Positions 11,412-29,036 of a DNA stretch of 37,764 nucleotides are shown here, one piece after another. The notes under the pieces were generated by a model. That model was not told the DNA's origin, did not search any database, and worked only from the letters and a program-made list of their open reading frames with translations. Both the position numbers and the translations under genes were made by a program. The stretch comes from Balneolales bacterium (GTDB taxonomy: Bacteria; Bacteroidota; Rhodothermia; Balneolales; Natronogracilivirgulaceae). How positions within the stretch are numbered: the stretch's first letter is position 1; the number at the start of each line of letters is the position of its first letter. Location: assembly GCA_007120385.1 (NCBI GenBank), contig SKNT01000008.1:1-37764 (forward strand), given 5' to 3'.

Positions 11412-12380
11412 TCAATCTTGTGCTCTTGATATAGTCACGGGATCCTGATGTATGCCGGACGGTCCCTGAACCGGCTCCCTGACGATAGCGGCAAACATGT
11501 TTTCCATGTATCGCTGGGTGGTTCCGGCCACGTGCGGTGTGATTACTACCTGAGGCATGGCCCAGAACGGATGATCCGGCGGGAGCGGCTCCTCACCGAA
11601 GACGTCGAGAATGGCCCCGGCGGGAATGCCGCTGCGCAGGGCCTCGACCAGTGCGGGTTCATCGACCACCGGACCGCGTGATACGTTTACAAGCAGTGAA
11701 CCGGGGCGCATGCGTCCCAGCACTCCGGCATCGACCAGTCCGTTTGTTTGCGGGGTGAGCGGCACACTTAAGACCAGGATGTCGCACCATGCGGCCAGGT
11801 CGCCCACATCGCCCACGCCATAGACCTTCTCCACCCCTTCCAGATCGCGCGGTCGCACGTCGCAGCCGCGGATTGTGAGGCCGAACGGCCGGGCGCGTTC
11901 CACCACGCGGGTGCCGATATTGCCCAGGCCGACGATCCCCAGACGGGCGCCGGTCAATTCGGAGAGCCAGGTGCGCTGCCACTCGCGTTTGCGCTGCTGG
12001 TCGCGGAAGCGATGAAACTGTTTTACATGGACCAGGATCCCGCCGATAACATATTCGGCGATGGCGACGGCGTTCACGCCGGATGATGTGGTAACGGCAA
12101 TGTCTTCCAGGTCGAGATCCATTTCATCCAGAATATCACGTCCGGAGCTGGTGAGGTGGATGCGTTCCGGACGCGGGATGCGTGCCAGGGCTTCGGGCAG
12201 CCAGTCGAGCTGCGGGGTGATGACCAGGTCGAACGCCTCCCCGGCGGGGATCTCCTCCGGGCTTCCGGCAAAAAGGCAGACCGTTCCCGGCAGGCAGCGG
12301 GCGGACAGCTCCTCAAGGTGCGTCCGCTGCCGGTCGAGTACATCCGGTTTTTGCAGGAAAAGGGCGTTTCTGTAGGTCAT
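11412..12380 (-). CDS. D-isomer-specific 2-hydroxyacid dehydrogenase (copy 1)
   Basis: The 322-residue product has the NAD fold 'LGIVGLGNIGTRVVE' and the three catalytic residues of the family: Arg in 'VNVSRGPVVDE', Glu in 'DVFGEEPLPPDHP' and His in 'VITPHVAGTT'. It should interconvert a 2-keto acid and a D-2-hydroxy acid with NAD(P)H. It overlaps the aldolase upstream by ATGA (12377-12380), so the two are probably translated together and may act in sequence: the aldolase makes or breaks a 4-hydroxy-2-keto acid, the dehydrogenase reduces or oxidises it. The substrate is not predictable. A second, divergent enzyme of the same superfamily is encoded at 26414-27358. Confidence 0.88.
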   Translation of the reverse strand: MTYRNALFLQKPDVLDRQRTHLEELSARCLPGTVCLFAGSPEEIPAGEAFDLVITPQLDWLPEALARIPRPERIHLTSSGRDILDEMDLDLEDIAVTTSSGVNAVAIAEYVIGGILVHVKQFHRFRDQQRKREWQRTWLSELTGARLGIVGLGNIGTRVVERARPFGLTIRGCDVRPRDLEGVEKVYGVGDVGDLAAWCDILVLSVPLTPQTNGLVDAGVLGRMRPGSLLVNVSRGPVVDEPALVEALRSGIPAGAILDVFGEEPLPPDHPFWAMPQVVITPHVAGTTQRYMENMFAAIVREPVQGPSGIHQDPVTISRAQD

Positions 12381-13213
12381 ACGGTCAGGGCCTCCCTTTT
12401 TGACGACAGAAAATTACGCACGGCGATGACCAGCTTGCGGCGGTTATCCTCAAGCTGTTTCTGGCTGGATTTACGGAATCCATCCAGGCATTCGTCGAGC
12501 CGTTTGATCTCATTGGGCAGGTTGATCCTGGATTTGAGTTCTTCGACGTCGTTGATGCCCATGCGGAACGAGCGCGAGAGGATCACCATCTCGGAGTGCA
12601 GGCGGATGTGTTCTCCGAGGATCAGCTTTGCCGGCACGGCGTCTTTGCGGCCCACGCGGGCGATGCCGCCAAAGCCGAACCGGATGTCGTGGTTGTGGAT
12701 CTTGCGGGCGGCGTATTCCACTATGCCTCCGCTGAGCAGTTCGAACATGAAATCGAGGCCCATGCCCAGATGCAGGTCGTTCAGACCCAGGTGTATCTCG
12801 TCGATGCCTGCGCTGTACTCCAGGATATCGTCGATTCGTGTAAGCGCCTGCGGGGTTTCCAGCAGCAGGCAGAGCCGGACGCGGCCGTCGATGAGCCGGA
12901 TTGTTTTCTCCACCTCGTCAGCCGTGTTGAACATCGGCAGCATGATCACATCGGTACCTGCCTCGATCGAGGAATCGATTTCCATGTGGGACTCGGAATG
13001 CACCGCGTTGATTCGCGTCATGATCTCGGCATCGGGGAGCCGGTTCCGAATGGCCGCCACATCGTCGGAGGTGCTCAGCGCCATATGGGTGTCGAGGAAA
13101 CCCTGCCGTTCGTACTTGCCCATCCACTCCATATCCACGAAGATGCGGTTCACCCCGCTTTTCCACGCGAATTCGGCCATATCAGGTTCATTTGTGATAA
13201 ACATGTAGATCAT
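12377..13213 (-). CDS. HpcH/HpaI (citrate-lyase beta-like) aldolase family protein (copy 1)
   Basis: The 278-residue product resembles the PEP/pyruvate-binding TIM-barrel aldolases. Visible signatures are 'GVNRIFVDMEW' near the N-terminus, 'IEAGTDVIMLPMF', a Glu in 'LLLETPQAL' in the position of the metal-binding Glu, and 'IHLGLNDLHLGMG' carrying the conserved Asp. A C-terminal helical extension rich in Lys/Arg/Asp follows. Family members cleave or form 4-hydroxy-2-keto acids using pyruvate or oxaloacetate. It overlaps both neighbours by ATGA (12377-12380 and 13210-13213), so it is co-translated with the initiating sugar transferase and the 2-hydroxyacid dehydrogenase. Substrate unknown. It is quite diverged from the other HpaI homologue at 25516-26316. 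Confidence 0.72.
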   Translation of the reverse strand: MIYMFITNEPDMAEFAWKSGVNRIFVDMEWMGKYERQGFLDTHMALSTSDDVAAIRNRLPDAEIMTRINAVHSESHMEIDSSIEAGTDVIMLPMFNTADEVEKTIRLIDGRVRLCLLLETPQALTRIDDILEYSAGIDEIHLGLNDLHLGMGLDFMFELLSGGIVEYAARKIHNHDIRFGFGGIARVGRKDAVPAKLILGEHIRLHSEMVILSRSFRMGINDVEELKSRINLPNEIKRLDECLDGFRKSSQKQLEDNRRKLVIAVRNFLSSKREALTV

Positions 13214-13860
13214 GAACTCTCCTTAATCTCTTTTTGTGCATATGGGGCCCATTTCTCACGATAGGCGCGCCAGTTTTTTGATTCGTCTCCGTAGATTCCC
13301 CTGGCAGCAAGCACCACCACAGCGGTTTGGAATATAATGCATATATCGCTTATAATCAATGGCTTGCGTGCATATTCAGTATCATACTTAAGCTGTTCTT
13401 CCCAGCTGAGGCTGCGTCGCCCGCGGACCTGGGCCAGGCCGGTGATGCCGGGACGTACGCGGAAGCGGTCTTCGAACCAGTGCGGGACAACCTCCAGCTG
13501 TTCAGGGATGACGGGACGGGGTCCCACCAGGCTCATCTCCCCTTTCAGGATGTTCAGAAGCTGCGGGAGTTCGTCGAGACTAGTCATGCGAAGGAAACGT
13601 CCGGCCCGCGTAATGCGCTGGTCGGCGCCGGCGCTTACGACCTGTTCGGTGTGCTGGTCGATGGTGTCGGGATCGCGGTGGGTCATGGTACGGAACTTGA
13701 GCACATTGAACGGCTCCCTGTTGCGCCCGATGCGTTTCTGTCGGAACAGGACCGGTCCGGGCGAGTCCAGCCTGATCCACACCGCCAGCAGAGCCAGGAG
13801 CGGCGAGAGCACCAGTATCCCCAGAAACGAGGCCGTTATGTCAAACAGTCGCTTCAACAT
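13210..13860 (-). CDS. Initiating sugar transferase (phosphoglycosyl transferase, PglC/WcaJ type)
   Basis: The 216-residue product starts 'MLKRLFDITASFLGILVLSP', the reentrant membrane helix of monotopic phosphoglycosyl transferases. 'FRQKRIGRNREPFNVLKFRTM' (read in two parts) and 'RFLRMTSLDELPQLLNILKG' follow, with the catalytic Asp-Glu in 'SLDELPQL'. 'MSLVGPRPVIPE' and 'RPGITGLAQVRGR' are also standard signatures. Short length without the WcaJ N-terminal helices puts it in the PglC-like class. It transfers a sugar-1-phosphate to undecaprenyl phosphate at the cytoplasmic face, starting the repeat unit. The 4,6-dehydratase nearby suggests a 6-deoxy-HexNAc as first sugar. It overlaps the upstream ParB-like gene by 20 bp and the downstream aldolase by ATGA. 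Confidence 0.93.
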   Translation of the reverse strand: MLKRLFDITASFLGILVLSPLLALLAVWIRLDSPGPVLFRQKRIGRNREPFNVLKFRTMTHRDPDTIDQHTEQVVSAGADQRITRAGRFLRMTSLDELPQLLNILKGEMSLVGPRPVIPEQLEVVPHWFEDRFRVRPGITGLAQVRGRRSLSWEEQLKYDTEYARKPLIISDICIIFQTAVVVLAARGIYGDESKNWRAYREKWAPYAQKEIKESS

Positions 13861-14530
13861 CCTTACCCATTGCTTTTGTTGTTTCTAATTTTTTTACAGG
13901 TTGCCCGTCGCCGTTCATGCTGGTGCGGAAATAATCGGAATGCACCACATGAAGAAGGCATGGAATGCGCTGCAGACCGAGTAAACGGGCCATGACCAGC
14001 CGGTGCATTCCACTGTTATTTCTCAGAAGGCGTCCGTCCCGGGTCACGTTGACCGTCAATTCATCGCAGAATAAAAGTGACTTCTTTTTATTTATACTGG
14101 TCTTCCACCCGGACTCCTTCAGGTCCTTGTAAACTGCTTCTCTGAGAGGAATTTTCTCCCGGTATTTCAAAATTTGTTTTTCAGTCAGGAACCCGTGCGG
14201 CTCAGCATGTTTTTGAAAAATCTCCTCCCAACTCAACCCCTTTCGATAACGCAGATCGATCACTTTGAAGGCGGTCGTTTCTTCAATCTTCTTGTATTCC
14301 CTGTCCCAGTCGCCGGAGATGGTATGTCCGCGGAGTTTTGCAGGTAAACGGTCCTTTCTGTGCAGGGATCCGATAATTTCATCGGGATGAACCCATATGA
14401 TTTCGAACAGGTTCATGTTGAGCCACGGCGCTTTTCCGTTACGGATACTCTTCGCGCGGAGGAGGACGTGAAGATCGTTATAAATCTTTACCGGAAACTT
14501 GATGATGCTGATTAGCTGGTTACTACCCAT
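13841..14530 (-). CDS. Conserved protein with ParB/sulfiredoxin-like motif
   Basis: I set the start at the ATG at 14530, which has GAGG about six bases upstream and overlaps the end of the GT4 gene by 8 bp. The frame itself opens further up, inside the GT4 gene. The 229-residue product is basic with no signal peptide or membrane span. Its C-terminal third has 'VNVTRDGRLLRNNSGMHRL' followed by 'ARLLGLQRIPCLLHVVHSDY'. This resembles the ParB/Srx fold pattern 'dG....GxHRl.Aa..lg...Ipv.v..rH'. I do not recognise a named family. The place between a GT4 and the initiating transferase is unusual for a ParB-like domain, so a nucleotide- or sugar-phosphate-directed enzyme is as likely as a DNA-binding role. 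Confidence 0.6.
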   Translation of the reverse strand: MGSNQLISIIKFPVKIYNDLHVLLRAKSIRNGKAPWLNMNLFEIIWVHPDEIIGSLHRKDRLPAKLRGHTISGDWDREYKKIEETTAFKVIDLRYRKGLSWEEIFQKHAEPHGFLTEKQILKYREKIPLREAVYKDLKESGWKTSINKKKSLLFCDELTVNVTRDGRLLRNNSGMHRLVMARLLGLQRIPCLLHVVHSDYFRTSMNGDGQPVKKLETTKAMGKDVEATV

Positions 14531-15683
14531 GGCTCGCCTCACTGAGGTTGCTTTTAAGTCCGAGAGCATCCAGAATAATCCGGTTGACCTTTCGAACGTC
14601 GTACTTTTCAGCTGCCAGCAGGCGGCTTTTGCCACCCATATCAAGGACTAACGAGGGATTCTGGATAAAATTCTCCATCCGGTCGGCAAGCGCCTCCGCG
14701 GATTTCACGGGAACAAGAAAACCGTTTTCCCCTTCGATGACCGTTTCCCGGCAGCCCGGGGTATCCGTGGTGATAACAGGTCGGCCCACGGCCATGGCCT
14801 CCAGCACGGACCGGGGTGTGCCTTCGCGGTATGAAGGCAGCACATAGACACTGCATTCTTCAAGGTGGGGCCGTACATCTTTCACGCCGCCCGTAAAGCG
14901 GATAATGCCGCGTTGGCGCCATTGCTCCACTTCCTCGGCCGGAAGCGCGTGCGGCAGGTGCGGGTCATGCGGACCCACAACCGTAAAGCGGACCTCGGGG
15001 TATCTTTCCGAGAGGATATGGGCGGCTTCCACGAATTCACGGACGCCCTTGTCCTTAAGCAACCGGGCGATCATCAGGAATGCAAGTGGTTTTTCCGGCG
15101 GCGCGGGAGGCTGCGATTGCGGAAAGCGCTCCAGGTTGATGCCGGATCCGTTGGTACGCACGATTTTTTCGCCGTTCCGCCCGTTAAGCAATCCCAGGTG
15201 CCGGAACAGTTCAAGATCGTCCGGGTTCTGGAAAAAAATGCGGTCTGCGGCGGCCAGTCCGCGCCGGTAGAGACGTGATGCAACACCGCGAAGCAGGCGT
15301 TGCCGCAGTGTTTCTCCCGTAAAAAGGTATCCCATGCCTGTAATCATGGCGGCCACCATGGGCACGTTGCAAGCCCGGGCGGCCATGGAGCCATAGATCA
15401 CGGGCTTGATGGAATAGCTGTAAACGATATCCGGTTCGAACTGCGCAATGAGCTGTTTGAGTTGGCGGTAGGACTTGCGGTCCGACCAGGGGTCCACACC
15501 GGTCCGGCTGAGCTGGATCAGATCGTAGCTGATGCCGAGATCGTGCACCTCCGGGAGAAAATCGTATTCCGGGATGAGGGCATGGACCTGGTGGCCCTGA
15601 GCCTTCATATCCTGAATAAGGTCTCCGCGGTTGGCGATCAGCGACCGGGCGTTTGCTGCTACGAAAAGGATCTTACTGGACAC
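14523..15683 (-). CDS. GT4-family glycosyltransferase (PglA/WbpT-like)
   Basis: The start is placed at the GTG at 15683, giving the N-terminus 'VSSKILFVAANARSL' typical of this group; an alternative GTG at 15749 would add 22 residues. The N-terminal half has 'IVYSYSIKPVIYGSMAAR' and 'AAMITGMGYLF', as in PglA/WbpT-type and other undecaprenyl-PP-sugar transferases. The C-terminal GT-B domain has 'LMIARLLKDKGVREFVEAA' and the nucleotide-sugar site 'LPSYREGTPRSVLEAMAVGR' with the two Glu of E-x7-E. It should add the second sugar to the lipid-linked first sugar in the cytoplasm. It lies directly upstream of the initiating transferase pair. Specificity cannot be read from sequence. Confidence 0.87.
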   Translation of the reverse strand: MSSKILFVAANARSLIANRGDLIQDMKAQGHQVHALIPEYDFLPEVHDLGISYDLIQLSRTGVDPWSDRKSYRQLKQLIAQFEPDIVYSYSIKPVIYGSMAARACNVPMVAAMITGMGYLFTGETLRQRLLRGVASRLYRRGLAAADRIFFQNPDDLELFRHLGLLNGRNGEKIVRTNGSGINLERFPQSQPPAPPEKPLAFLMIARLLKDKGVREFVEAAHILSERYPEVRFTVVGPHDPHLPHALPAEEVEQWRQRGIIRFTGGVKDVRPHLEECSVYVLPSYREGTPRSVLEAMAVGRPVITTDTPGCRETVIEGENGFLVPVKSAEALADRMENFIQNPSLVLDMGGKSRLLAAEKYDVRKVNRIILDALGLKSNLSEASHG

Positions 15684-15749
15684 GGTTGCGGTGTGAAGTT
15701 CTGTTAAAATTGACTGCTGGCGACTGGCCTGCAATTGGCAAGACAGCAC

Positions 15750-15962
15750 AATCGCTCAGCTTTTAAATAAGCTATGCCCTCAAGGCATCTAAAATCAAAT
15801 TCTTCAGATTAGAAAGTCTTAACGATGCTGCTCTGTGAGGTGTGCCCTGAAACGCAGAAAAAGCCGATTCCTGCGGTTTGCAGCTCTGAAACAGATTAAG
15901 ATGTCTTAATGTCGCTATTTCGGGCGGCATTAAAACGGCATTGAGGCCTTATTTCACACGTT
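15750..15962 (-). promoter_or_regulatory. Gap with diverged direct repeats, probable promoter or operator region
   Basis: This gap (up to 279 bp counting to the GTG at 15683) is the largest in the run between 9353 and 37764, so it probably holds a promoter for the genes at 9353-15683. Two imperfect 25-base direct repeats are visible at 15805-15829 and 15892-15916, sharing CAGATTA then GTCTTAA. The second contains a near-perfect palindrome, TTAAGA-TG-TCTTAA (15896-15909). A hairpin ATGCC-ctcaa-GGCAT lies at 15774-15788. CGGCATT occurs twice about 11 bases apart, near 15925-15945. I see no certain -35/-10 pair. Confidence 0.45.
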
Positions 15963-17231: not shown

Positions 17232-17291
17232 GTAAAGTATCCTGTTATGAAATTGTGAAAGTTACAGTTTTATTGGAAATCATCATGGTTG

Positions 17292-18758
17292 TCAGCCGGG
17301 CATATCCGGGACGCGGTCAAGCGGGAACAGGCGAACGGCTGCCCGCAGTTTCCCACCGGCACCGGCAGGCAGCTGATCCACCACCCTGACGGTCACCTGT
17401 GCCGACGCGCCCATGATCTCCCGGGTGCGATCGATCAGGATCTGCTCGTCGCCGGCGCTATAGGCATGCTCTGTTTCCACGAAAATTTCGAATTCCGATG
17501 GTTTTTTCTGGATGATCTGCCCCCTGATGACATGCCTGGCCTGTTTGAAAAGCACACTGGCCACGCGTCCGATGAGGGCGCCTTTATCGTTGATGAAAAA
17601 ATCATCCTCCCTTCCCACGATCCGTTGCACCAGGGGCATCTGGCATCCGCAAGGGCAAGATTCGTGCTCTTTCAGCTGAATGAAATCCCCGATTTCGTAG
17701 CGGATCAATGGCATTTTACGGTTTCTGAAACCGGTTACGACCAGTTCGGCCAGCTGTACCGGACCGGTAGCGGTGGTTTTACCGGTGTGAGTGTCCGGAC
17801 CGGTACCGTTAGGGCCGATGCCGGTATGCACCCGGTACTCGAAGTAGCCGGTATCCAGGTGCAGGTGCAGGTTGCCTTCGGGGCATTCGGAGATCATGGG
17901 ACTGCCCTCGGCAGAGGCGTACTGGTTGAACACTTTGGCGCCAAACGCCTTTTCTATGGTCTTGCGCTGTTCACTGTACAGCGTCTCGGCCGTTACACTG
18001 ATGGCGACTGGCCTGAAATCAAGCTTGATATTGTTTGCAAGGATATATCTGGCAATGATGAAAATGGTGGACGGATAGCCGTCGAGCAGTTGTGGACGGA
18101 AACGGTTGAGTTTGCGGATGTAGTGCTTCAGGTTCTCGTCCGTAAGATGGTACGATGACATGAACAGCTGCCGGTCGAAGTAATTCAGAACCCAGAACGG
18201 GGGTTTTTTCTGTTCAGTCGGCACAATGTTGTTTCCGGTGAACCGGGCACTGCGGAATTTCCGGGGAAGTCCGATGCTCCAGTAGTAGCGGTGCAGGTAG
18301 GCAAAGGTACGCTGCTGGGTATCCCTGTCCATGGCGATTATCATCGGTGTTCCCGTAGTTCCGCTCGTAGTGCGTGTAACAGTGGTGGGACGACGATCAT
18401 CGCTTATGGCAATCTTGCCGGCATGATCACGACGCTGTTTCTTGGTCAGTTTTGGCATGCGGAACAGGGCCTCTTCCGGTTCTTTCCGGATCAGCTCCTC
18501 GGTTATTCCTTTCTTCTGCATGACGTTACGGTACCAGGATGATTCCTGCCGGCATTCCAGAAGCATGTCACGGAGCACGTTCTGCTGGAAGAGCCGGATG
18601 TCATGGAAATCGGCTTCCCATAACTTTTTGTGTTGCTCCAGCATGCGGCAGAAATTACCCGAATACCGGTTCCGGTACAAAAGCATGGCCTTGATATTCA
18701 GGATGAGCACCTTCAGGAAATAAGGAGCGTAAATATAAATTTTTTTTGCCAAAGACAT
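17292..18758 (-). CDS. CapK/PaaK-like adenylate-forming enzyme
   Basis: I prefer the ATG at 18758 (488 residues), 16 bp past the upstream gene. The frame also allows a GTG at 18818 that would overlap the GT4 gene by 44 bp. 'TRTTSGTTGTPMIIAMDRD' is the phosphate-binding loop of ANL enzymes. 'NQYASAEGSPMISECPEG' and 'VVTGFRNRKMPLIRYEIGD' are the other CapK/PaaK core motifs, and 'CPCGCQMPLVQRIVGRED' carries a paired-Cys motif usual in the family. CapK proteins occur in capsule and exopolysaccharide loci; a role in acyl or amino-acid side-group activation is suspected but rarely shown. An A8 run lies just inside this start (coding AAAAAAAA, 18740-18747). Confidence 0.85.
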   Translation of the reverse strand: MSLAKKIYIYAPYFLKVLILNIKAMLLYRNRYSGNFCRMLEQHKKLWEADFHDIRLFQQNVLRDMLLECRQESSWYRNVMQKKGITEELIRKEPEEALFRMPKLTKKQRRDHAGKIAISDDRRPTTVTRTTSGTTGTPMIIAMDRDTQQRTFAYLHRYYWSIGLPRKFRSARFTGNNIVPTEQKKPPFWVLNYFDRQLFMSSYHLTDENLKHYIRKLNRFRPQLLDGYPSTIFIIARYILANNIKLDFRPVAISVTAETLYSEQRKTIEKAFGAKVFNQYASAEGSPMISECPEGNLHLHLDTGYFEYRVHTGIGPNGTGPDTHTGKTTATGPVQLAELVVTGFRNRKMPLIRYEIGDFIQLKEHESCPCGCQMPLVQRIVGREDDFFINDKGALIGRVASVLFKQARHVIRGQIIQKKPSEFEIFVETEHAYSAGDEQILIDRTREIMGASAQVTVRVVDQLPAGAGGKLRAAVRLFPLDRVPDMPG

Positions 18759-18774
18759 CGTTTTTTTAGACAGA

Positions 18775-19908
18775 TCAGGTGGACGGAATAATATTTTTTT
18801 CGGATCTGATTGGCTCACCTCGATAAATTATAAGTAGCTGGTTAGCAACTGATTCGGTGGCAAAGCGTTCCTTGACAATATCGCGGGATTTCCTTGCCCG
18901 GTTTGCCAACTCATTTTCCGGCAGTTCCATCAGTTTCCGAACGGCTTCGGCCAGTTTATCGGAGTCGTTTGAAGGTACCAGGAATCCGTTTTTGCCACTG
19001 TGTACTACCTCCGAGTTGCCTCCGACGTCGGTAGCGACGATTGGCAGGCCCGACGCGGCTGCTTCGAGAAGTACGATGGGCAGCCCTTCCCATGCAGACG
19101 ACATGAGATAGGCGTCGGCGCCTTTCATGAGCCGGTCCACATCACTGCGAACCCCGAGCAGGGTAACCTGCCGGTCCAGTTCCAGCCCGGAAACAAGTCC
19201 GGCAATGGCTTCCTTGTCCGGTCCCTTTCCTGCAATTATCAGGCGGGCATTTTCCTTTTCGGCCGCCACTTTCTTGAAGGCATGGATCATGTTCGGATAA
19301 TTCTTCTGTTCGAAGAATCGCCCTACTGCCAACCAGACGAATTGTCCGTTCAGGTCCAGTTCCTTCCGCACCTCTTCACGGATCCGGGCATCAGGGGCAA
19401 ATTTCTCTACATTGACGGGGTTGATGACATATGTGATATTATCCCCCTTGAACCTGGTGCGTTCGCGGTATTTTTCCACCCCTTCCTGCGAAACCGAAGT
19501 GATGAAATCCGGAATCCCGTTGGTGATGCGATAAAGAAAATCGAGGAAGCGGTGCCCCCCCTCCTTGCCCCCGTGGGTGGTCTGTACCAGCCGCCAGGAG
19601 CGTTTTCCCGGGCCGGCTATGCGAGTAAAAAGGTTGGCGTGGATCAGGTGGGAGTGGACCACGTCGGGTTTGAGCCTGCGAATGAGGCGGCGGTACCTGC
19701 CAATGGCTGCGGGAAGCTTCAAAGGGGTCAGGTCCAGACTGTAAACAGAAACACCGTTTGACTCCAGCTCATCTGTCAGCGCCTTTGGCGTGCGCAGGCT
19801 GATAATGGATACATCATGATTGCGGCTCAGGTGAATGGCCTTGTTCACCAGAAGCGTCTCCGCTCCCCCATAATCGAGTCCGGTGATTACATAGACAATG
19901 TTCATCAT
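18775..19908 (-). CDS. GT4-family glycosyltransferase
   Basis: The start is set at the paired ATGs at 19908/19905, giving the standard N-terminus 'MNIVYVITGLDYGGAETLL'; the longer frame overlaps the upstream kinase gene. 'DVVHSHLIHANLFTRIAG' and 'TTHGGKEGG' are typical of GT4 enzymes with an acceptor-side GT-B fold. The donor domain has 'WLAVGRFFEQKNYPNMIHA', 'IIAGKGPDKEAI' and the E-x7-E motif in 'SSAWEGLPIVLLEAAASGLP'. Retaining transferase; cytoplasmic, acting on a lipid-linked repeat unit. Donor and linkage cannot be predicted. Placed between a P-loop protein and the CapK-like gene in a compact run. Confidence 0.9.
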   Translation of the reverse strand: MMNIVYVITGLDYGGAETLLVNKAIHLSRNHDVSIISLRTPKALTDELESNGVSVYSLDLTPLKLPAAIGRYRRLIRRLKPDVVHSHLIHANLFTRIAGPGKRSWRLVQTTHGGKEGGHRFLDFLYRITNGIPDFITSVSQEGVEKYRERTRFKGDNITYVINPVNVEKFAPDARIREEVRKELDLNGQFVWLAVGRFFEQKNYPNMIHAFKKVAAEKENARLIIAGKGPDKEAIAGLVSGLELDRQVTLLGVRSDVDRLMKGADAYLMSSAWEGLPIVLLEAAASGLPIVATDVGGNSEVVHSGKNGFLVPSNDSDKLAEAVRKLMELPENELANRARKSRDIVKERFATESVANQLLIIYRGEPIRSEKNIIPST

Positions 19909-19930
19909 CCTGATGTTATAATGTTGTGGT

Positions 19931-20488
19931 TCAATAGTTTTCAATAATTGTGGATTGCAGTCTCTCACAAATGAATTCGTAGCTCTGCTCCCAGCGTCCA
20001 AGTCGCTGCCGGGCCTCCTCCTCATCTACTCTCCGCGCAAAATGCTCCTTGTCGCGGCCATGGATCCGTCCGAGTACGATATCCACCGGGCACCGCAGGT
20101 AGACTGTATCGTCGTAGACCTGCCGAATGCGCTCCAGAAGCTTCTCCATTTCGCGGCTGGATCGCTCCTGCTCTCCCGGGCTGCTTTTATAGTGCAGCCG
20201 GCTCAGGTTGTAGATAGGTCCCTGGTCGTAGATCACTTTTATATTCTCTTTGCGGGCCAACAACTCAGCCACGATCAGCTTATAATAAATAAAGAAGACG
20301 ATTTTGCGCTTCAGGTTATCCCGGAAACGGAAAGCGAGACGCAATAACGGGATCATGTCGCGGGTGAGCAGCCGGAGCAGGACCCGCAGTTTGAGCCACG
20401 GGGAGACTCGAACTTTTGCCATGCCGGTTTGCCGTTTGACCCAGGTAGATTTTCCTGAGCCGGCGATACCATACACTTCAACGATCAA
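19931..20488 (-). CDS. Small P-loop nucleotide-binding protein (kinase-like, copy 1)
   Basis: The start is a TTG overlapping the stop of the upstream GT4 gene as TTGA (20485-20488), a coupling arrangement. The 185-residue product starts with a Walker A loop, 'VEVYGIAGSGKSTWVKR'. A middle helix set is rich in Arg/Lys. 'YDQGPIYNLSRLHYKS' and 'DTVYLRCPVDIVLGRIHGRD' resemble the lid and NMP-binding regions of dTMP-kinase or adenylylsulfate/shikimate-type kinases. A small-molecule kinase acting on a sugar or modifying group is a reasonable inference. The substrate is unknown. A second P-loop protein lies at 21686-22375. Confidence 0.75.
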   Translation of the reverse strand: MIVEVYGIAGSGKSTWVKRQTGMAKVRVSPWLKLRVLLRLLTRDMIPLLRLAFRFRDNLKRKIVFFIYYKLIVAELLARKENIKVIYDQGPIYNLSRLHYKSSPGEQERSSREMEKLLERIRQVYDDTVYLRCPVDIVLGRIHGRDKEHFARRVDEEEARQRLGRWEQSYEFICERLQSTIIENY

Positions 20489-21672: not shown

Positions 21673-21685
21673 GGTAATGCTTGTA

Positions 21686-22375
21686 TTACCGGATCACTTT
21701 CCAGCTGTGATCATTACTTGCGGATGGCTTGACAAAGTGCCTGTCCACCTGCTTTCCCGAAGACGCTTTTTCATTCAGGTAGGCATTGAATTTCTCATAC
21801 CATCCATCCACCCAGCCCTGCTCCTGGTATTTGAAATAGAGCAGTTTGTTGAAATCGGTAATTGAGGATTTCCGGTTGAACAGAAGAATTTTTTTTACCG
21901 ATTTGCGGATGTTTTGCGGGATCTTGCTGAACATCTGCGTGATCAGTTTCCGAATGGTGACACCGGCCGGTTGCCGGTCCAGTTTTTTGCCACCCAGCTC
22001 TCCTCTGGTCAGTTGCGAAAGCAGCACCTCCGGTTCCGGCTTGATGATATAAACCGTGATCCTGTTGGACCGGTTGATCATGAAATCAATATTGTCCTCA
22101 TGGTAGCCATTGAGGATTTTCTTAAAAGGTCTCAGGAAGTCGTAGTGAAGCACCATTCCGGGCAGCGGATTTTCACGGGTTGCGTTCATTTTTTTCGCAT
22201 ATTCGCTGGTAATGTACTTCATTGCAGGGACCGATGGCCAGCTGCTGATGTCTTCGGGGAAAATCCTGCGTGTGTCATCATCCAGCTTGCCTGCTGCCAG
22301 GCTCTTGATAAGAGTGCTTTTCCCTGAAGAAGTTGGTCCGGTAATGATCACCAGATGATCTATATATAATTCCAC
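21686..22375 (-). CDS. Small P-loop nucleotide-binding protein (kinase-like, copy 2)
   Basis: The 229-residue product begins with a Walker A loop, 'LVIITGPTSSGKSTLIKSLA' (start GTG at 22375, close to the P-loop). 'DISSWPSVPAMKYITSEYAK' and 'VYIIKPEPEVLLSQLTRGEL' follow. The C-terminal half, 'YFKYQEQGWVDGWYEKFNAY', is like that of other polysaccharide-locus P-loop proteins whose role is unknown. It is not closely similar to copy 1 apart from the Walker motif. It follows the LicD-like gene after 14 bp and precedes a GT4 gene after 13 bp. It may be a kinase for a sugar, a hydroxy acid or an activated side group. Function not assigned. Confidence 0.7.
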   Translation of the reverse strand: MELYIDHLVIITGPTSSGKSTLIKSLAAGKLDDDTRRIFPEDISSWPSVPAMKYITSEYAKKMNATRENPLPGMVLHYDFLRPFKKILNGYHEDNIDFMINRSNRITVYIIKPEPEVLLSQLTRGELGGKKLDRQPAGVTIRKLITQMFSKIPQNIRKSVKKILLFNRKSSITDFNKLLYFKYQEQGWVDGWYEKFNAYLNEKASSGKQVDRHFVKPSASNDHSWKVIR

Positions 22376-22389
22376 CCTGAATTCCTTAA

Positions 22390-23148
22390 TTAGTTCTTTT
22401 CATGGAGGATGCCCCCGTCCTGGGTAGTGTAATCCCAGTCTTTTTTGGGCACCCGCCAGTCTTTTCCGTATTTGTGGATGAGATACTGCTCCGGGCTGGT
22501 ATATATCTGAATATTCTCAATTTCCTCCATCAGTTTCGTTTTGTCAAGGTCAAACTGCCATTCCGGGCACTCCATGTCGATTGTCTTCATGAAGTAGCTG
22601 CGGTAGAACCAGGAGATGGAATTTGCTAACATCCACAAACCCAGGCGGAGGCCGTTCCGGCGGGACCGCTGCACGAGACCCAGGACTTCCTTGATTGTTT
22701 TTTCGATCACTTTGGCCAGGAAATTCTGGTGTTCGAAATCTGAGTAGGATTTCAAATAGCGACCGTTTTTGCCGTAGATGAAGGTCAGGTCCACTTTTTT
22801 GATATCTTCATCACTATTCAGCGATTTCAAGTTGATGCCGAATCTGGAGGTAAGCACCACAAGTCCCTTGTCCATCAGTTTTTTAACATCGGTCAGGCGG
22901 AGCCGGGGCCTGTCATGCTGCATGCAGGAAAGGTCTATGTCGTTGTCCCATTCAATAAGCTTTCCATCGCGCACCAGCCCCAGGAGTGTTCCCTGGTCTA
23001 CCCACGCTTTGCTGTTCTTCAGTATGATATTGTCGGTAAGCCGCAGGAGGGTCATATCACTATCATTGATCCGGAAACCGGAATTTCCAAAGTCCTTTTC
23101 GTCAGAGGTTAACTCACCTTCAATCATAAGCTTATTTGCGGTAGCCAT
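22390..23148 (-). CDS. LicD-family phospho(no)transferase
   Basis: The start is set at the ATG at 23148, preceded by AGGA at a good distance. It overlaps the reductase gene by 17 bp; an ATG at 23127 is an alternative. 'WVDQGTLLGLVRDGKLIEWD' leads into 'DNDIDLSCMQHD', the LicD metal/nucleotidyltransferase-fold signature. The C-terminus 'IQIYTSPEQYLIHKYGKDW' with 'RVPKKDWDY' matches the LicD family end. LicD enzymes move phosphocholine from CDP-choline to glycans; related members are thought to handle other CDP- or CMP-linked groups. Next to a phosphonate reductase gene, I infer a role in transferring a CMP-activated phosphonate (2-hydroxyethylphosphonate) to the polysaccharide. This is inference from context. 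Confidence 0.8.
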   Translation of the reverse strand: MATANKLMIEGELTSDEKDFGNSGFRINDSDMTLLRLTDNIILKNSKAWVDQGTLLGLVRDGKLIEWDNDIDLSCMQHDRPRLRLTDVKKLMDKGLVVLTSRFGINLKSLNSDEDIKKVDLTFIYGKNGRYLKSYSDFEHQNFLAKVIEKTIKEVLGLVQRSRRNGLRLGLWMLANSISWFYRSYFMKTIDMECPEWQFDLDKTKLMEEIENIQIYTSPEQYLIHKYGKDWRVPKKDWDYTTQDGGILHEKN

Positions 23149-24265
23149 TGATGTTCCTGTAATATACGTCAAATAATTCCGAGGTGCTTATTCTTGCCGG
23201 GTTGTTTCCCATCCTCTCCTCGTTGATGCTGTCAAGATACTTTTTGAGTGAGGATCGAGAAGTGAGGCCGGCTTCTGAAACATCCATTCGAAGTCCCATG
23301 TTTTTTTTCAGCCTGGATATGCCTCCGGCCAGGGCATCGGCATCTGACACCTCGAAGAGGGTGAAGAAGTCGCGGCGAACATTTTTCGAAACCACCGGCA
23401 GGTTTTTACGGATGAAGAATTCCATATTCATGGCTACGGCTTCTCCGTGCGGCACGCCAAGATGATCGGTCAGATAGTAGGACATGGCGTGCGGACCGGT
23501 GGTTTTTGAGATATTGATTGCTTTTCCGGCAAAGAAGGCTCCGAGGGCCATGGCTCTGCGGCTTTTGCTGTCGGGATGGTGGCAGAACTGTTCCAGGTGT
23601 GGAAGGATGAGCGTGATGGCATGGCGGGCGTATTCCATGCTGCGCGCGGTGGCGTTGCGCGCCCAGAGCGACTCCATGGCCTGGCACAGAGCATCCATGC
23701 CGCTTGTGGCAGTCTGTGCGGCAGACATGCCTGTAGTCAGTTCCGGGTCCACAACAACGTAAGCCGGCTGAAGCTGCGGCGAGGCAAGGGAGTACTTGGA
23801 TCCGTCGCGGTACATTACGGCGAAGTGGGTGGCTTCGCTGCCTGAACCGGCCGTAGTCGGTACGGCGGTGATCGGTGCCGCTACGGGAAGACCGCTGATA
23901 TCGGGAAAGCCGGCATCCAGTGCCTGCGGATTTTCCAGATATATGGCAACCAGTTTGGCGAAATCCATCACACTGCCTCCGCCTACGGCAATGATCATGT
24001 CGACATGAGCGCCTTTCAGTTGTTCAAGTGCTGCCACCAGGGCTTCATGGGACGGGTTGGTGCCAAATCCGCTGTAACGCGTAACCGAAACACGGCTTGC
24101 CATCTGTTCGAAATAGTCGCGTGCACGGGACCGGTCATAGGACGATCCTCCCGTGAAAAGCAGAACGGACCGGACGTTCCTTTTCTGCAGGATATCGTCC
24201 AGGGCCATACGGAAATCGGTGTCAAGGTATTCAGTCACGCCGTTGCTTCTGAAAAGATTGCTCAA
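23132..24265 (-). CDS. Iron-ADH-family reductase, probable phosphonoacetaldehyde reductase
   Basis: The 377-residue product has the group III Fe-ADH cofactor motif 'GGGSVMDFAK' (95-104) and 'PTTAGSGSEAT'. At the metal site, Asp191 and Gln195 lie in 'DALCQAMES', with His259 in 'GPHAMSYYL' and His273 in 'VPHGEAVAMN'; Gln195 stands where canonical Fe-ADHs have the first His ligand. Directly upstream is phosphonopyruvate decarboxylase, which makes phosphonoacetaldehyde. The inferred reaction is NAD(P)H-dependent reduction of phosphonoacetaldehyde to 2-hydroxyethylphosphonate, as PhpC-type enzymes do in phosphonate pathways. Its position just before LicD suggests the product is the glycan substituent. 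A general aldehyde reductase is the alternative. Confidence 0.85.
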   Translation of the reverse strand: MSNLFRSNGVTEYLDTDFRMALDDILQKRNVRSVLLFTGGSSYDRSRARDYFEQMASRVSVTRYSGFGTNPSHEALVAALEQLKGAHVDMIIAVGGGSVMDFAKLVAIYLENPQALDAGFPDISGLPVAAPITAVPTTAGSGSEATHFAVMYRDGSKYSLASPQLQPAYVVVDPELTTGMSAAQTATSGMDALCQAMESLWARNATARSMEYARHAITLILPHLEQFCHHPDSKSRRAMALGAFFAGKAINISKTTGPHAMSYYLTDHLGVPHGEAVAMNMEFFIRKNLPVVSKNVRRDFFTLFEVSDADALAGGISRLKKNMGLRMDVSEAGLTSRSSLKKYLDSINEERMGNNPARISTSELFDVYYRNINGYRK

Positions 24266-24322
24266 AACTGTTGTGGAAAAGGTTGTGTCGTGTAATATCC
24301 GGGGTTCTTCTTGCCTGCGGGG

Positions 24323-25519
24323 TTAATCGGGGATCGGTCGGGCCGATTGTTTCTGAGCCAGATGATCCATCAGATCGGTCTTGTTTTGGATGGGGGTGCG
24401 TGTGGGCCGTCCCAGGTCCTTTCGTGCGCCCCTTGCAACCTGCACTTCCAGCAGTACGGGGCCGTCGGTACGTGCAAGCCAGTCCAGGGCTTCCCTGAGA
24501 CCGTCCGGATCCGATACCCGCCGGGCTTTGCGATATCCGCAGGCCATGGCAATGGCAGGGATATCAATATCAAATGCAACGGTTGGCTGTCCGCCCACCG
24601 AGTCGTGGGCGCCGTTGTTGACCACGATATGTTTGAATCCTTTGGGTGCGTTTGCACCGATGATGGCGAGCGATCCCATGTGCATGATCAGTGCTCCGTC
24701 ACCATCCACACAGCAGATTGTCCGTTCGGGCCGGCTCAGCGCGGCGCCGAGGGCAATCTGGGAGCAGTGGCCCATGGACCCCACGGTCAGAAAGTCACGG
24801 TGATGGCCCATATTCCCCTGGGCGCGTATCTCGAATATCTCGCGTGAAGGCATGCCGGTCGTGGATACGACGACCGTGTCATCGTCGAGTGACCGGATGA
24901 TGGCCTCCAGCGCTTCCTCACGTTTCATCTGTGGTGCCGCGGACGTACCGGGTCTTTCTTCGGTTTGGGTCGCGGTGCCGCTGTTGCCGGTCTCTTTTCC
25001 CTCCCACTTCACGAAGGTGCCTTTTTGCACAACCAGTGCCACCGGACGGTTTTCCTGCTGTGCCTGCGCCAAGAGACGCCGCACAACCGATGCATAGTCA
25101 CGGGTATCGGGCCCGATCACTTCGTATGGCAGTTCCATGGCATCCAGCAGGCCATTCTGCACACGGCCCTGCTTGACGTGCTGCGGTTCGTCTTTTACTC
25201 CGGGCTCGCCGCGCCAGCCGATCATGAGCAGCATGGGTATGCTGTAGACTTCGCGGTCGGCGATGGAGAGCAGCGGATTGACCGTGTTGCCGAGGCCGGA
25301 GTTCTGAAGGTAGACCATGGCCATGCGCCTGGTGGCGATATGATAGCCGGTGGCCAGGCCCACCGCCGCGCCTTCGTTGGCGGCAATGACATGCTGTTGC
25401 GGAGCCACGCTTGCCGTGATGCAGGCGCAGATCTCCTTGAGCAGGGAATCGGGCACGCCGGTGAAAAAACCGACGCCCTCATCCTGCAGGGTCTTTAGAA
25501 ATTCGTTATTGGATATCAT
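24323..25519 (-). CDS. aepY: Phosphonopyruvate decarboxylase
   Basis: The start is the ATG at 25519, overlapping the aldolase stop by ATGA (25516-25519); upstream residues of the frame lie inside the aldolase gene. The 398-residue product begins 'MISNNEFLKTLQDEGVGFFT' with 'TGVPDSLLKE' and the ThDP-activating Glu in 'AANEGAAVGLATGYH'. 'LLMIGWRGEPGVKDEPQH' and 'KQGRVQNGLLDAM' are characteristic of phosphonopyruvate decarboxylases. The ThDP/Mg motif runs from 'GDGALIMHMGSLA' to 'VNNGAHDSVGGQPT'. Reaction: phosphonopyruvate to phosphonoacetaldehyde plus CO2, the irreversible step that drives C-P bond formation forward. Sulfopyruvate decarboxylase is related, but the PEP mutase in the locus settles the call. 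Confidence 0.93.
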   Translation of the reverse strand: MISNNEFLKTLQDEGVGFFTGVPDSLLKEICACITASVAPQQHVIAANEGAAVGLATGYHIATRRMAMVYLQNSGLGNTVNPLLSIADREVYSIPMLLMIGWRGEPGVKDEPQHVKQGRVQNGLLDAMELPYEVIGPDTRDYASVVRRLLAQAQQENRPVALVVQKGTFVKWEGKETGNSGTATQTEERPGTSAAPQMKREEALEAIIRSLDDDTVVVSTTGMPSREIFEIRAQGNMGHHRDFLTVGSMGHCSQIALGAALSRPERTICCVDGDGALIMHMGSLAIIGANAPKGFKHIVVNNGAHDSVGGQPTVAFDIDIPAIAMACGYRKARRVSDPDGLREALDWLARTDGPVLLEVQVARGARKDLGRPTRTPIQNKTDLMDHLAQKQSARPIPD

Positions 25520-26316
25520 CCCAGATCCGTTTCGTCCAGTTTTTGGCAAATGCCGTTGAGTGCCTGCACCAGGATGGTCATTTCAATGGAATAGCCCAGA
25601 AATGCCATGCCGCTGTCGCGCCAGTGCCGGAGCTGCTGAATGGTGTCGGTGAAGATCCCCAGTTTCACGTTGCGGCGTGCGGCGCGGACGATCAGATCCT
25701 CAACGGCCCGTGTGACGCGGGGATTCTCAATGTCGCCGGGAATGCCCAGCGATTGCGAAAGGTCATACGGACCCACAAAGATCACGTCTATGCCGTCCAG
25801 AGAGATGATCTCGTCGAAGTTGTCCAGGGCCTCGCTGCCTTCCACCTGCATGACCATGAGGCTGCGGTTGGCTTCCGGAAAGTAGTCTTCCCTGGCCATG
25901 GCGCCGTAATTTGCGGCGCGCACAAAGCGGCATACCCCGCGTTCGCCATGCGGATGAAACCGGGCCAGTTTGAGCGCGATTGCGGCCTGTTCGGCACTTT
26001 GCACGGAAGTCACCATGATGCCGTGGGCGCCCAGGTCCAGCGCCTTGCCGATATGCATGCTGTCGTAGCGCTCCACCCGGACAATGCCCAGTGTCGGCGT
26101 GGCTTGCAGCGCCATCAGGTGCGTTTTGAGCGTCTCGGTGGTTATCGGCGAGTGTTCCATGTCCAGCACGGCGAAATCCATGCTGCTGTGGCCGATCGCT
26201 TCGATGACCGAGCTGTCGGTGGTTTTGCAGAATATGCCCAGAACGTGCTTATCCTGCATTTTCTGGCGGAATTCTGACAGTTTATTGGCGAAATGGAAGG
26301 GAGATTGCAGAGTCAT
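25516..26316 (-). CDS. HpcH/HpaI aldolase family protein (copy 2)
   Basis: The 266-residue product carries clear HpaI-type motifs. 'FAVLDMEHSPITTETLK' resembles the 'lDxEHgp' site, 'GAHGIMVTSVQSAEQA' lies in the barrel core, and 'QVEGSEALDNFDEI' carries the metal-binding Glu. 'GIDVIFVGPYDLSQSLG' carries the matching Asp, and 'LGYSIEMTIL' ends the barrel. Family reaction: reversible aldol of pyruvate (or a related enolate) with an aldehyde to a 4-hydroxy-2-keto acid. It sits between Ppd (ATGA overlap) and a 2-hydroxyacid dehydrogenase (97 bp, with a hairpin). Phosphonopyruvate or phosphonoacetaldehyde are possible co-substrates because of the neighbours, but this is speculation. Confidence 0.87.
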   Translation of the reverse strand: MTLQSPFHFANKLSEFRQKMQDKHVLGIFCKTTDSSVIEAIGHSSMDFAVLDMEHSPITTETLKTHLMALQATPTLGIVRVERYDSMHIGKALDLGAHGIMVTSVQSAEQAAIALKLARFHPHGERGVCRFVRAANYGAMAREDYFPEANRSLMVMQVEGSEALDNFDEIISLDGIDVIFVGPYDLSQSLGIPGDIENPRVTRAVEDLIVRAARRNVKLGIFTDTIQQLRHWRDSGMAFLGYSIEMTILVQALNGICQKLDETDLG

Positions 26317-26370
26317 ATGTTGGTCTGTGATGTAGTGACAGGATGTAATTGTCTATGATGAATGCACCGG

Positions 26371-26411
26371 CCGTGCCCGCTTTCGGGGAAACGGATGCGA
26401 AGCCGGCACGG
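26371..26411 (-). promoter_or_regulatory. Hairpin between the 2-hydroxyacid dehydrogenase and HpaI genes
   Basis: CCGTGCC (26371-26377) and GGCACGG (26405-26411) form a 7-bp stem. After one mismatch (C26378/C26404) GCTT (26379-26382) pairs with AAGC (26400-26403), leaving a loop of 17 bases, or less if a G-U pair closes it further. It begins two bases past the stop of the dehydrogenase on the minus strand, within the 97-bp gap to the aldolase. No T-run follows on the minus strand, so I regard it as an mRNA-processing, stability or attenuation element rather than a strong terminator. Confidence 0.45.
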
Positions 26412-26413
26412 GT

Positions 26414-27358
26414 TCAGTACAGAAGGTTGTAGGGAGTCTTGTTCTCGTAGATGCGCAGTGCGTTCCGGGCAGCATTGATCCGCAATTCCCGGGAGGATGC
26501 GGCCGAGTAGTACGAGGTGTGCGGGTTGATGATCAATCGTCCGCGCAGCCACTCCTCACTGTTGCGCCATGCGCTGATGAGTGCATCGTCGGCCGGCGGT
26601 TCCTGCGGCAGCACGTCCATTGCCACGGCGGACAGGTGTTCCGAGCGCAGTGCGTCATGGAGGATGCCGGTATCGGCCAGCAGTCCGCCTCTCGCCGTGT
26701 TGACAAGGGCGCTGCCCGGTTTCATGGCGGCGATGAAACCGGCGTCGATCATGCCGCGGGTCTCGTCGCTGAGCGGCGTATGCACCGATACGATGTCCGA
26801 TGCGGCCAGCAGCTCATCCTGGGAGTCCACCCGCCGGCTCTGAAGCATCTTTTCGTATCCGCGCGGCCGGTATGGGTCGTATAAGACGGTCTGGAACCCG
26901 AGGGCCCGGCATTTTATAAGCACGCTGCCGCCGATGCGGCCCGCGCCGACCACGCCCAGCACGGTGTCGCTGGTGCGCCTGATGGCGGTGTTGACGTTTT
27001 CCTGCCAGTTTGACCGGTAGGCTTTTGCGGCGTGGTCGTAGGTGAATACGCCGCGGACGATGTTCAGTATCATGGCCACGGCGGTATCGGAAACCTCATC
27101 CACCCCGTAGTCGGGATTGTTGCAGGCAACGATGTTGCGCTGTTTCAGGGCAGGCAGGTCCAGGTTGTCGTATCCCACGCCGTAGCGCTGCACGCCGCGA
27201 AGGGCCGGCAGGCGGTCCACGTACTCGCCGGTGATATGGTCATGCCAGACGAGCAGCACCTCGGTGTCGGGGCCGGCTTTTGTGCCGACCAGGTCGCCGA
27301 GGATCTCGCGCTCCACATCCGGCTCTTTGAAATAATCGGTAATGGCTATTACGGACAT
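26414..27358 (-). CDS. D-isomer-specific 2-hydroxyacid dehydrogenase (copy 2, CtBP-like)
   Basis: The 314-residue product has 'VLGVVGAGRIGGSVLIKCRA' (NAD fold) and the catalytic triad: Arg in 'LVNTARGGLLAD', Glu in 'AMDVLPQEPPADD' and His in 'IINPHTSYYS'. 'RGVQRYGVGYDNLDLPALKQ' is typical of the C-terminal-binding-protein/phosphoglycerate-dehydrogenase group. Expected to interconvert a 2-keto acid and D-2-hydroxy acid. It lies six bases after the KdsB-like gene and is co-directional with the aldolase. Clearly different in sequence from the other dehydrogenase at 11412-12380, so this is not a recent duplication. A role in oxidising a hydroxyalkylphosphonate, as PhpE-type dehydrogenases of this superfamily do in phosphinothricin biosynthesis, is possible but unproven. 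Confidence 0.86.
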   Translation of the reverse strand: MSVIAITDYFKEPDVEREILGDLVGTKAGPDTEVLLVWHDHITGEYVDRLPALRGVQRYGVGYDNLDLPALKQRNIVACNNPDYGVDEVSDTAVAMILNIVRGVFTYDHAAKAYRSNWQENVNTAIRRTSDTVLGVVGAGRIGGSVLIKCRALGFQTVLYDPYRPRGYEKMLQSRRVDSQDELLAASDIVSVHTPLSDETRGMIDAGFIAAMKPGSALVNTARGGLLADTGILHDALRSEHLSAVAMDVLPQEPPADDALISAWRNSEEWLRGRLIINPHTSYYSAASSRELRINAARNALRIYENKTPYNLLY

Positions 27359-27364
27359 GCGTTG

Positions 27365-28096
27365 TTATCCCTCTTTTGCGGCAGCTTTCATGCGTTTCTC
27401 GACGATCTTGACATCTTTGGGCTCGTCTATCGCCCAGCTGTCGCCTATCATATCGATGCAGTAGACCGGGATGTCCAGCTCCAGGAACCGGATGATGTCG
27501 AGCTGCTCGATGCGGTCGATTCGGGAATAGGTGCGCTCGCTTACGTAGCGGTCCAGCGCCTGCTTGTTGAAAGCGAACAGCCAGATCGCCTTCTCGGCTG
27601 TGTCGAAGTTGCCGCGGATATCCAGCGGGATGCCGGCACGGGAGGTAAACAGCAGACGTCCGTCGGGCGCGCATACCACTTTTGCTTTCGAGGGGTCCCC
27701 GAAGTCGGTTTCACTGCACTCCGTCTTGCCAAAGACAATGCGTCCGGGATGTTCCCGGTTGTAATCCAGCAGGCGGCGCACATCGCGGGTGTTGACCAGC
27801 GGCTCGTCGCCCTGGATGTTCAGATAGGCGTCGGCGGGCACCTGATCGCTGAGCAGCTTTATGCGCGTGGTGGCGCACTCGGCCGGACCGGTATTCACGC
27901 AGTTCATCCCGTTTTTCTCACAGTATTCGACGATCACGTCGTCTTCGGTTGCCAGATAGATATCCTCTTCGGGGTGCACCTGTGCGCAGCGCTCCCATAC
28001 GTGCCGGATGACCGGCTTGCCCAGGATGTCGATCATCGCCTTGCCCGGAAGACGCGAGCTGGTCATGCGGGCGGGAATTGCAATTACCTGTCTCAT
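27365..28096 (-). CDS. KdsB-like CMP-keto-acid cytidylyltransferase
   Basis: The 243-residue product matches KdsB (CMP-Kdo synthetase) along its length. 'IPARMTSSRLPGKAMIDILG' is the nucleotide-binding start, 'YLNIQGDEPLV' has the metal-binding Asp97, 'RIEQLDIIRFLE' is the lid, and 'AIDEPKDVKIVE' has the second Asp. The KdsB 'SGTER' sugar-binding stretch reads 'CATTR' here (74-78). It should join CMP to a 3-deoxy-2-keto acid or a related acid. No KdsA or KdsD is visible, so genuine Kdo supply would have to come from elsewhere. With the aldolase, dehydrogenases and HAD phosphatase around it, activation of a different keto acid made by this cassette is a reasonable inference. Confidence 0.83.
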   Translation of the reverse strand: MRQVIAIPARMTSSRLPGKAMIDILGKPVIRHVWERCAQVHPEEDIYLATEDDVIVEYCEKNGMNCVNTGPAECATTRIKLLSDQVPADAYLNIQGDEPLVNTRDVRRLLDYNREHPGRIVFGKTECSETDFGDPSKAKVVCAPDGRLLFTSRAGIPLDIRGNFDTAEKAIWLFAFNKQALDRYVSERTYSRIDRIEQLDIIRFLELDIPVYCIDMIGDSWAIDEPKDVKIVEKRMKAAAKEG

Positions 28097-29022: not shown

Positions 29023-29036
29023 TCTTGCAGCTATCC

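Follow-up and report, generated by a model that had tools for sequence, protein, structure and literature searches.

The window analysed here, a stretch of 37,764 nucleotides of contig SKNT01000008.1 from a Balneolales bacterium (assembly GCA_007120385.1), carries a surface-polysaccharide locus in which an aldolase of the HpcH/HpaI fold lies beside a D-2-hydroxyacid dehydrogenase in two places: ALD1 with DH1 (pair 1) and ALD2 with DH2 (pair 2). Our work suggests that the locus contains two independent acid-making units, in each of which such an aldolase is combined with a 2-hydroxyacid dehydrogenase. Pair 1 would make a 2-oxo acid and reduce it, and pair 2 would take part in the formation of an ulosonic acid activated by cytidine monophosphate (CMP). 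We give this reading a probability of about one half. If it is correct, both sets are predictable pathways to acid components of bacterial surface glycans.

Two unrelated pairs in one locus

An earlier reading of the window from the sequence alone had described two aldolase/dehydrogenase pairs of opposite gene order, too diverged for a recent duplication, and had taken the repeated pairing as a sign that the two activities form one functional unit by which a hydroxy-acid group is made for the glycan. All four open reading frames are exactly where this reading had placed them (Table 1), and the gene order is indeed opposite: pair 1 has the aldolase upstream of its dehydrogenase, pair 2 has it downstream, all four genes being on the minus strand. 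A recent duplication can be dismissed, since BLAST gives no meaningful similarity between the two aldolases, and the dehydrogenases, 28% identical over 239 amino acids, belong to separate lineages of the tree.

The pairing recurs. In a survey of 124 genomes of the order with 49 PF03328 places, four of them cut or unclear, a D-2-hydroxyacid dehydrogenase was found within 1.5 kb of the aldolase in 18 of 27 places of the glycan type but at none of the 18 others; these counts rest on a crude sorting, by similarity to genes of this locus, and many of the places come from one genus and are not independent. Counted by genus, the numbers are 7/12 and 0/4 (p = 0.09). ALD1 and ALD2 are the sole PF03328 genes found in their own genome, a 91% complete draft of 2.96 Mb that encodes about six clear D-2-hydroxyacid dehydrogenases. 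The rough chance of adjacency, leaving aside the clustering of glycan genes, is thus 0.4% for one pair and about 2e-5 for both, so that the pairing is well above chance.

The idea of one functional unit was borne out in part: the pairing is recurrent, and pair 1 behaves like a unit, being found across phyla with an exchangeable partner, whereas the view that the two pairs are one unit occurring twice is not supported. For the latter to be true, both would have to be versions of a single arrangement in which aldol addition is followed by reduction to a hydroxy acid for the glycan. Both pairs do combine an aldolase of this fold with a dehydrogenase that looks active as judged from its sequence, and three dehydrogenase lineages adjoin such aldolases in glycan loci. 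However, the aldolases belong to different subfamilies, as do the dehydrogenases to different lineages, and in another genome of the genus (G118, 88% complete) pair 1 and the phosphonate genes are present without pair 2, the phosphonopyruvate decarboxylase gene being directly followed by the gene for the phosphoenolpyruvate (PEP) mutase fusion. Moreover, pair 2 is accompanied in several genomes by a homologue of CMP-sugar synthetases, a GAPDH-like dehydrogenase and a HAD-family phosphatase. DH2 can then not simply reduce the aldol product if this is to receive CMP at the keto carbon, as reduction would block the activation. Hence, we regard a single unit present in two versions as unlikely; each pair is probably a unit of its own, but there is no relationship between the sets, and their modes of action probably differ. 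The gene content of G118 also implies that pair 1, pair 2 and the phosphonate genes of the window are three separable modules.

Pair 1 and the exchange of its partner enzyme

The genes of pair 1 follow a gene for a polyprenyl-phosphate sugar-phosphate transferase (PGT), and both the PGT/ALD1 and the ALD1/DH1 reading frames overlap by four bases. A PF03328 score above the cut-off, the fold, the Arg and the metal-site Glu and Asp place ALD1 in the HpcH/HpaI superfamily: among 41 aligned relatives R67, E119, D146, D27, E29, K33, R36 and Q37 are invariant, and these include the Arg (R67) and the two metal-site acids (E119, D146). The structure model (predicted local distance difference test, pLDDT, 94) has its best matches in the folds of pyruvate kinase and HpaI, with a template modelling score of about 0.6, and also matches the malyl-CoA lyase and citramalyl-CoA lyase folds. 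Thus, ALD1 is predicted to share the fold of the class II pyruvate aldolases HpaI, GarL and YfaU, but its sequence similarity to them is weak and the catalytic His of HpaI is not present: ALD1 has VDMEW where DxEH is expected, and none of eight aligned relatives has a His there. DH1 has the NAD domain of D-2-hydroxyacid dehydrogenases and their catalytic Arg, Glu and His in the motifs SRGP, GEEP and TPHV.

A scan with the ALD1 alignment against the genomes of 84,980 species yielded 373 relatives, and the loci of the best 80 of these were analysed. The PGT is near ALD1 in 64 and a D-2-hydroxyacid dehydrogenase in 53 of the 80 loci, the latter spanning Balneolota, Bacteroidota, Bacillota and Pseudomonadota. 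Fifty-six loci have 2.5 kb or more of flanking sequence on either side; of the dehydrogenases encoded there, 37 are located within the 280 kb adjoining ALD1 as compared to three in the remaining 578 kb. The dehydrogenases adjoining ALD1 form a tree group of their own, separate from the other dehydrogenases of the sampled genomes; the pair is therefore partly co-inherited, and the locus counts are not independent. Carriers of the PGT-ALD1-DH1 set include Halomonas/Vreelandella, Idiomarina, Mucilaginibacter, Planococcus, Bacillus and many Clostridia, so that culturable strains are available for an analysis of the glycan.

The nature of the ALD1 product is suggested by what replaces the dehydrogenase. 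Of the 80 loci, seven have a class IV aminotransferase (PF01063) in its stead, mostly together with a PF02784 decarboxylase, and three clostridial loci without a D-2-hydroxyacid dehydrogenase have one of the L-lactate/malate type (PF02615). Among the 56 loci with full flanks none has both kinds of partner, while 37 have the dehydrogenase only, six an alternative only and 13 neither (p = 8e-4); a truncated locus (L177) gives scores for dehydrogenases of both types. When mapped on the tree of ALD1, the presence of the dehydrogenase requires ten changes, at least four of them forced by strongly supported branches, and the changes of partner are scattered. In L168 (7920-10076), ALD1 is even fused to a domain resembling pyridoxal-phosphate-dependent decarboxylases (PF02784-like), followed by a class IV aminotransferase. 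The alternative partners, like the dehydrogenase, are enzymes that convert 2-oxo acids, and the simplest reading of the exchange is that the product of ALD1 is a 2-oxo acid, to be reduced or aminated by the partner enzyme. The same choice of follow-up enzymes is known from biocatalysis, where HpcH aldolases supply 4-hydroxy-2-oxo acids for reduction by dehydrogenases or amination by transaminases, a branched-chain aminotransferase among them; these cascades are engineered, and the passages that deal with them describe no natural glycan pathway (PMC7610986). In the literature that we searched, with incomplete coverage, no named pathway of this kind, aldolase plus 2-hydroxyacid dehydrogenase in glycan loci, was found; two hits that linked HpcH/HpaI with the O-antigen were genome papers. 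If our reading is true, the exchange turns the vague annotation as "aldolase/citrate lyase family protein" into a testable statement, i. e. that the protein is a 2-oxo acid maker.

For pair 1 we propose that ALD1 adds an enolate of the pyruvate type to a carbonyl compound and thereby forms a 2-oxo acid, as suggested by the fold, the conserved metal and pyruvate-site positions and the exchange of partners. DH1 would then reduce the 2-oxo group, and the resulting (R)-2-hydroxy acid would enter the repeat as a branched or non-sugar component; it may be placed on the first sugar on which the adjacent PGT and the CapD-type nucleotide-sugar 4,6-dehydratase act. Several observations weigh against this proposal. 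No dehydrogenase is nearby in 19 of the 56 full-flank loci, 13 of which have no recognised alternative either, and the mutual exclusion of the partners stems in part from related loci. Moreover, with the HpaI His missing, ALD1 could catalyse another reaction of the superfamily. As a side observation, relatives of ALD1 on two Rhodobacterales plasmids (L221, L222) are located beside an asparagine synthase, a DegT aminotransferase and a NeuB-family synthase, with no dehydrogenase.

Fusions of ALD1 to a CapD-type dehydratase in two Fimbriimonadaceae (L134:8001-9893 and L138:8001-9893) would be compatible with a keto sugar as the substrate of ALD1. Taken further, CapD would provide a 4-keto sugar nucleotide, ALD1 would extend it by a three-carbon branch derived from pyruvate, and the partner would reduce or aminate this branch to yield a branched-chain sugar acid or amino acid. 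DH1 and CapD are neighbours in the window, 23 of the 80 loci have CapD within reach, and some ketones are usable as electrophiles by HpcH aldolases according to PMC7610986. On the other hand, most ALD1 loci have no CapD nearby, CapD is common in glycan loci anyway, and the fusion was seen in no more than two genomes, which are related to each other. We consider this possibility to be distinctly unlikely.

Pair 2 and its module

In the window, pair 2 is the end of a series of genes for a HAD-family phosphatase, a GAPDH-like dehydrogenase, a fumarylacetoacetate-hydrolase-family (FAH) protein, a cytidylyltransferase similar to the CMP-Kdo synthetase KdsB, DH2 and ALD2, in this order. ALD2 has the sequence features of class II pyruvate aldolases, with H55, R80, Q157, E159 and D185 invariant among its relatives, and the metal, Arg, His and Gln positions are shared with HpaI, GarL and YfaU, the solved structures of which it matches. 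These enzymes are catabolic, whereas ALD2 is part of a glycan locus and stays below the NCBIfam equivalog cut-offs for HpaI (160 vs 369 bits) and GarL (149 vs 407 bits). DH2 has the NAD domain and keeps R223, E253 and H280 as the catalytic Arg, Glu and His of D-2-hydroxyacid dehydrogenases. The KdsB-like protein reaches 192 of the 255 bits required for the best KdsB subfamily, and the GAPDH-like protein is likewise under its cut-offs (263 vs 367 bits for GAPDH-I, 214 vs 539 bits for E4PDH). It retains Cys175 and His202, but has ICDAN in the region of SCTTN and HPWL in place of HSYT. As the GAPDH-like proteins of the module have in common that the phosphate-site residues are altered and the catalytic Cys and His kept, a changed substrate is indicated.

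Within the genus, the module is shared by G120 only, as far as seen; in G121 there is just a fragment of an aldolase gene at the end of a contig. The FAH protein was found only in the window and in G120 among the loci compared. Among 396 genomes of the phylum, four others (G039, G257, G348 and G538) have relatives of DH2 with 54-62% identity, all of them beside an HpaI aldolase, and no relative in this range was found outside such a module. The three complete loci also have genes for GAPDH-like (44-49%), HAD (34-39%) and CTP_transf_3 proteins, while the contig of G538 ends at the aldolase-dehydrogenase pair. Two further loci combine HpaI, CTP_transf_3, HAD, short-chain dehydrogenase/reductase (SDR) and lactonase/isomerase-like proteins with a third dehydrogenase lineage. 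Plasmids of Rhizobium and Azospirillum encode more distant relatives of DH2 (43-46% identity), which were considered and set aside; the one gene context inspected is a cluster of ATP-binding cassette transporter and oxidoreductase genes that is not related to glycans. In L051 (7206-8747) and L054 (8207-9757), HMGL-like proteins (PF00682) directly adjoin ALD2-like aldolases near CTP_transf_3, which represents another module.

The product of the pair 2 module is probably a CMP-activated ulosonic acid. In vitamin B6 synthesis, the GAPDH-family enzyme Epd and then the D-2-hydroxyacid dehydrogenase PdxB act on a sugar phosphate, and the module has the same combination, although DH2 is CtBP-like rather than a PdxB. 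By analogy, five activities may follow each other: the GAPDH-like enzyme would oxidise a small sugar phosphate to the aldonate, DH2 would oxidise the 2-hydroxyl to give the 2-oxo acid before the aldolase acts, the HAD phosphatase would remove the phosphate, ALD2 would perform the aldol addition, and the KdsB-like enzyme would make the CMP-ulosonic acid for transfer to the glycan. The loci with SDR and lactonase-like proteins may obey the same logic: a sugar phosphate would be oxidised to an acid and then at C2, lose its phosphate, undergo the aldol addition and be activated with CMP. The pathways to CMP-Kdo and CMP-nonulosonic acids (KdsA/NeuB, KdsC, KdsB/NeuA) share with the module the broad HAD phosphatase and cytidylyltransferase families and the expected acid sugar, but the module has no PEP-dependent synthase; it has the HpaI-type aldolase, the GAPDH-like enzyme and the D-2-hydroxyacid dehydrogenase instead.

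The assignment is favoured by an MptE-like protein that accompanies all three complete outside loci; the Pfam MptE-like domain is the Maf_flag10 domain of Maf glycosyltransferases, which resembles a sialyltransferase according to PMC11339370. Some findings argue against it: no MptE-like protein was detected in the window itself, the counterparts of ALD2 in the other module loci are only 28-31% identical, and the cytidylyltransferase there is of a different subtype with no more than 33-38 bits, so that the chemistry need not match.

It is tempting to go one step further, albeit tentatively: ALD1 would be central to a cassette, widespread but so far undescribed, which furnishes the first sugar of bacterial surface glycans with a branch or acyl group derived from pyruvate, and the pair 2 module would be an aldolase route to a new CMP-ulosonic acid without a PEP-dependent synthase. 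The finishing enzyme of the cassette would be interchangeable; it may be a reductase of either stereochemistry, a transaminase, or a transaminase with a decarboxylase.

In the window and in G120, pair 2 is flanked by the genes for phosphonopyruvate decarboxylase and for the PEP mutase fusion. It could thus serve the phosphonate pathway instead of the synthesis of an ulosonic acid, e. g. if acids like phosphonopyruvate were its products or substrates. This is improbable, since the modules of G039, G257 and G348 have no match to PEP mutase or the decarboxylase in the 20 kb fetched, and G118 has the phosphonate genes without pair 2. Even though D-2-hydroxyacid dehydrogenases are common and NAD enzymes abundant in glycan loci, a mere chance neighbourhood in loci rich in sugar enzymes is very hard to reconcile with the near/far contrast around ALD1, the absence of such neighbours from the 18 other PF03328 places and the conservation that puts every close DH2 relative in the same module.

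The phosphonate genes and the remainder of the locus

Table 1. Genes of the two pairs and of the modules around them
Feature	Position	Strand	Matches
ALD1, divergent HpcH/HpaI-superfamily aldolase	12377..13213	-	PF03328 43 bits (cut-off 25; weak but above)
DH1, D-2-hydroxyacid dehydrogenase	11412..12380	-	PF02826 181 bits
PGT, polyprenyl-phosphate sugar-phosphate transferase, first gene of the PGT-ALD1-DH1 set	13210..13860	-	PF02397 215 bits
CapD/FlaA1-type nucleotide-sugar 4,6-dehydratase, adjoining DH1	9353..11398	-	Pfam 391 bits
ALD2, HpaI-class pyruvate-type class II aldolase	25516..26316	-	PF03328 109 bits (cut-off 25)
DH2, CtBP-like D-2-hydroxyacid dehydrogenase	26414..27358	-	PF02826/PF00389; best PDB match CtBP2
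Cytidylyltransferase like CMP-Kdo synthetase (CTP_transf_3)	27365..28096	-	PRK13368 192 bits; best PDB match 1gq9, CMP-Kdo synthetase
FAH protein	28138..29085	-	PF01557 186 bits
GAPDH-like dehydrogenase	29037..30128	-	GAPDH-I 263 bits
HAD-family phosphatase	30062..30688	-	Pfam
Fused cytidylyltransferase-PEP mutase, Fom1-like layout	33120..34427	-	PEP_mutase 416 bits (cut-off 320)
Phosphonopyruvate decarboxylase	24323..25549	-	TIGR03297 483 bits (cut-off 312.5)
Iron alcohol dehydrogenase, probable phosphonoacetaldehyde reductase	23132..24265	-	PsrA model 169 bits (under its cut-off)
LicD-like phosphotransferase, probable phosphonate transfer to glycan	22390..23172	-	PF04991 32 bits

The annotated genes of the window, all on the minus strand, together form a surface-polysaccharide locus with a uridine-diphosphate-sugar dehydrogenase, the CapD-type dehydratase, the phosphoglycosyl transferase, several glycosyltransferases, a PaaK-like ligase, LicD, a pyruvyltransferase-like gene and the phosphonate module. 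The closest named relatives of the genome are Balneolales metagenome-assembled genomes labelled CSSed, a label which we take to denote samples of soda-lake sediment.

The phosphonate module looks complete and suggests hydroxyethylphosphonate on the glycan; the polysaccharide made by the locus is probably decorated with phosphonate. The PEP mutase part of the fusion exceeds the equivalog cut-off and has the motif EDKXXXXXNS that is given for PEP mutase in PMC6697681. With the Fom1-type gene sets for CMP-hydroxyethylphosphonate and phosphonoglycans, as they appear in the passages of the same paper on these sets, the window shares this motif, the cytidylyltransferase-PEP mutase fusion and the LicD-like transferase; they correspond to this third module and to neither of the pairs.

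A protein encoded at 34480-35268 (u262) is 65% identical to its counterpart in G120, and its family was not recognised. Short motifs resembling the MptE/sialyltransferase fold made it a candidate for the CMP-sugar transferase, but hhalign, a profile search against the PDB and a single-sequence structure model all gave nothing, and we do not claim this function. Two small P-loop proteins without firm family (19931-20488 and 21686-22375) are encoded amid the glycosyltransferases. Finally, the PaaK/CapK-like adenylate-forming protein encoded at 17292-18818 (NCBIfam 81 bits, under the cut-off) could conceivably activate an acid.

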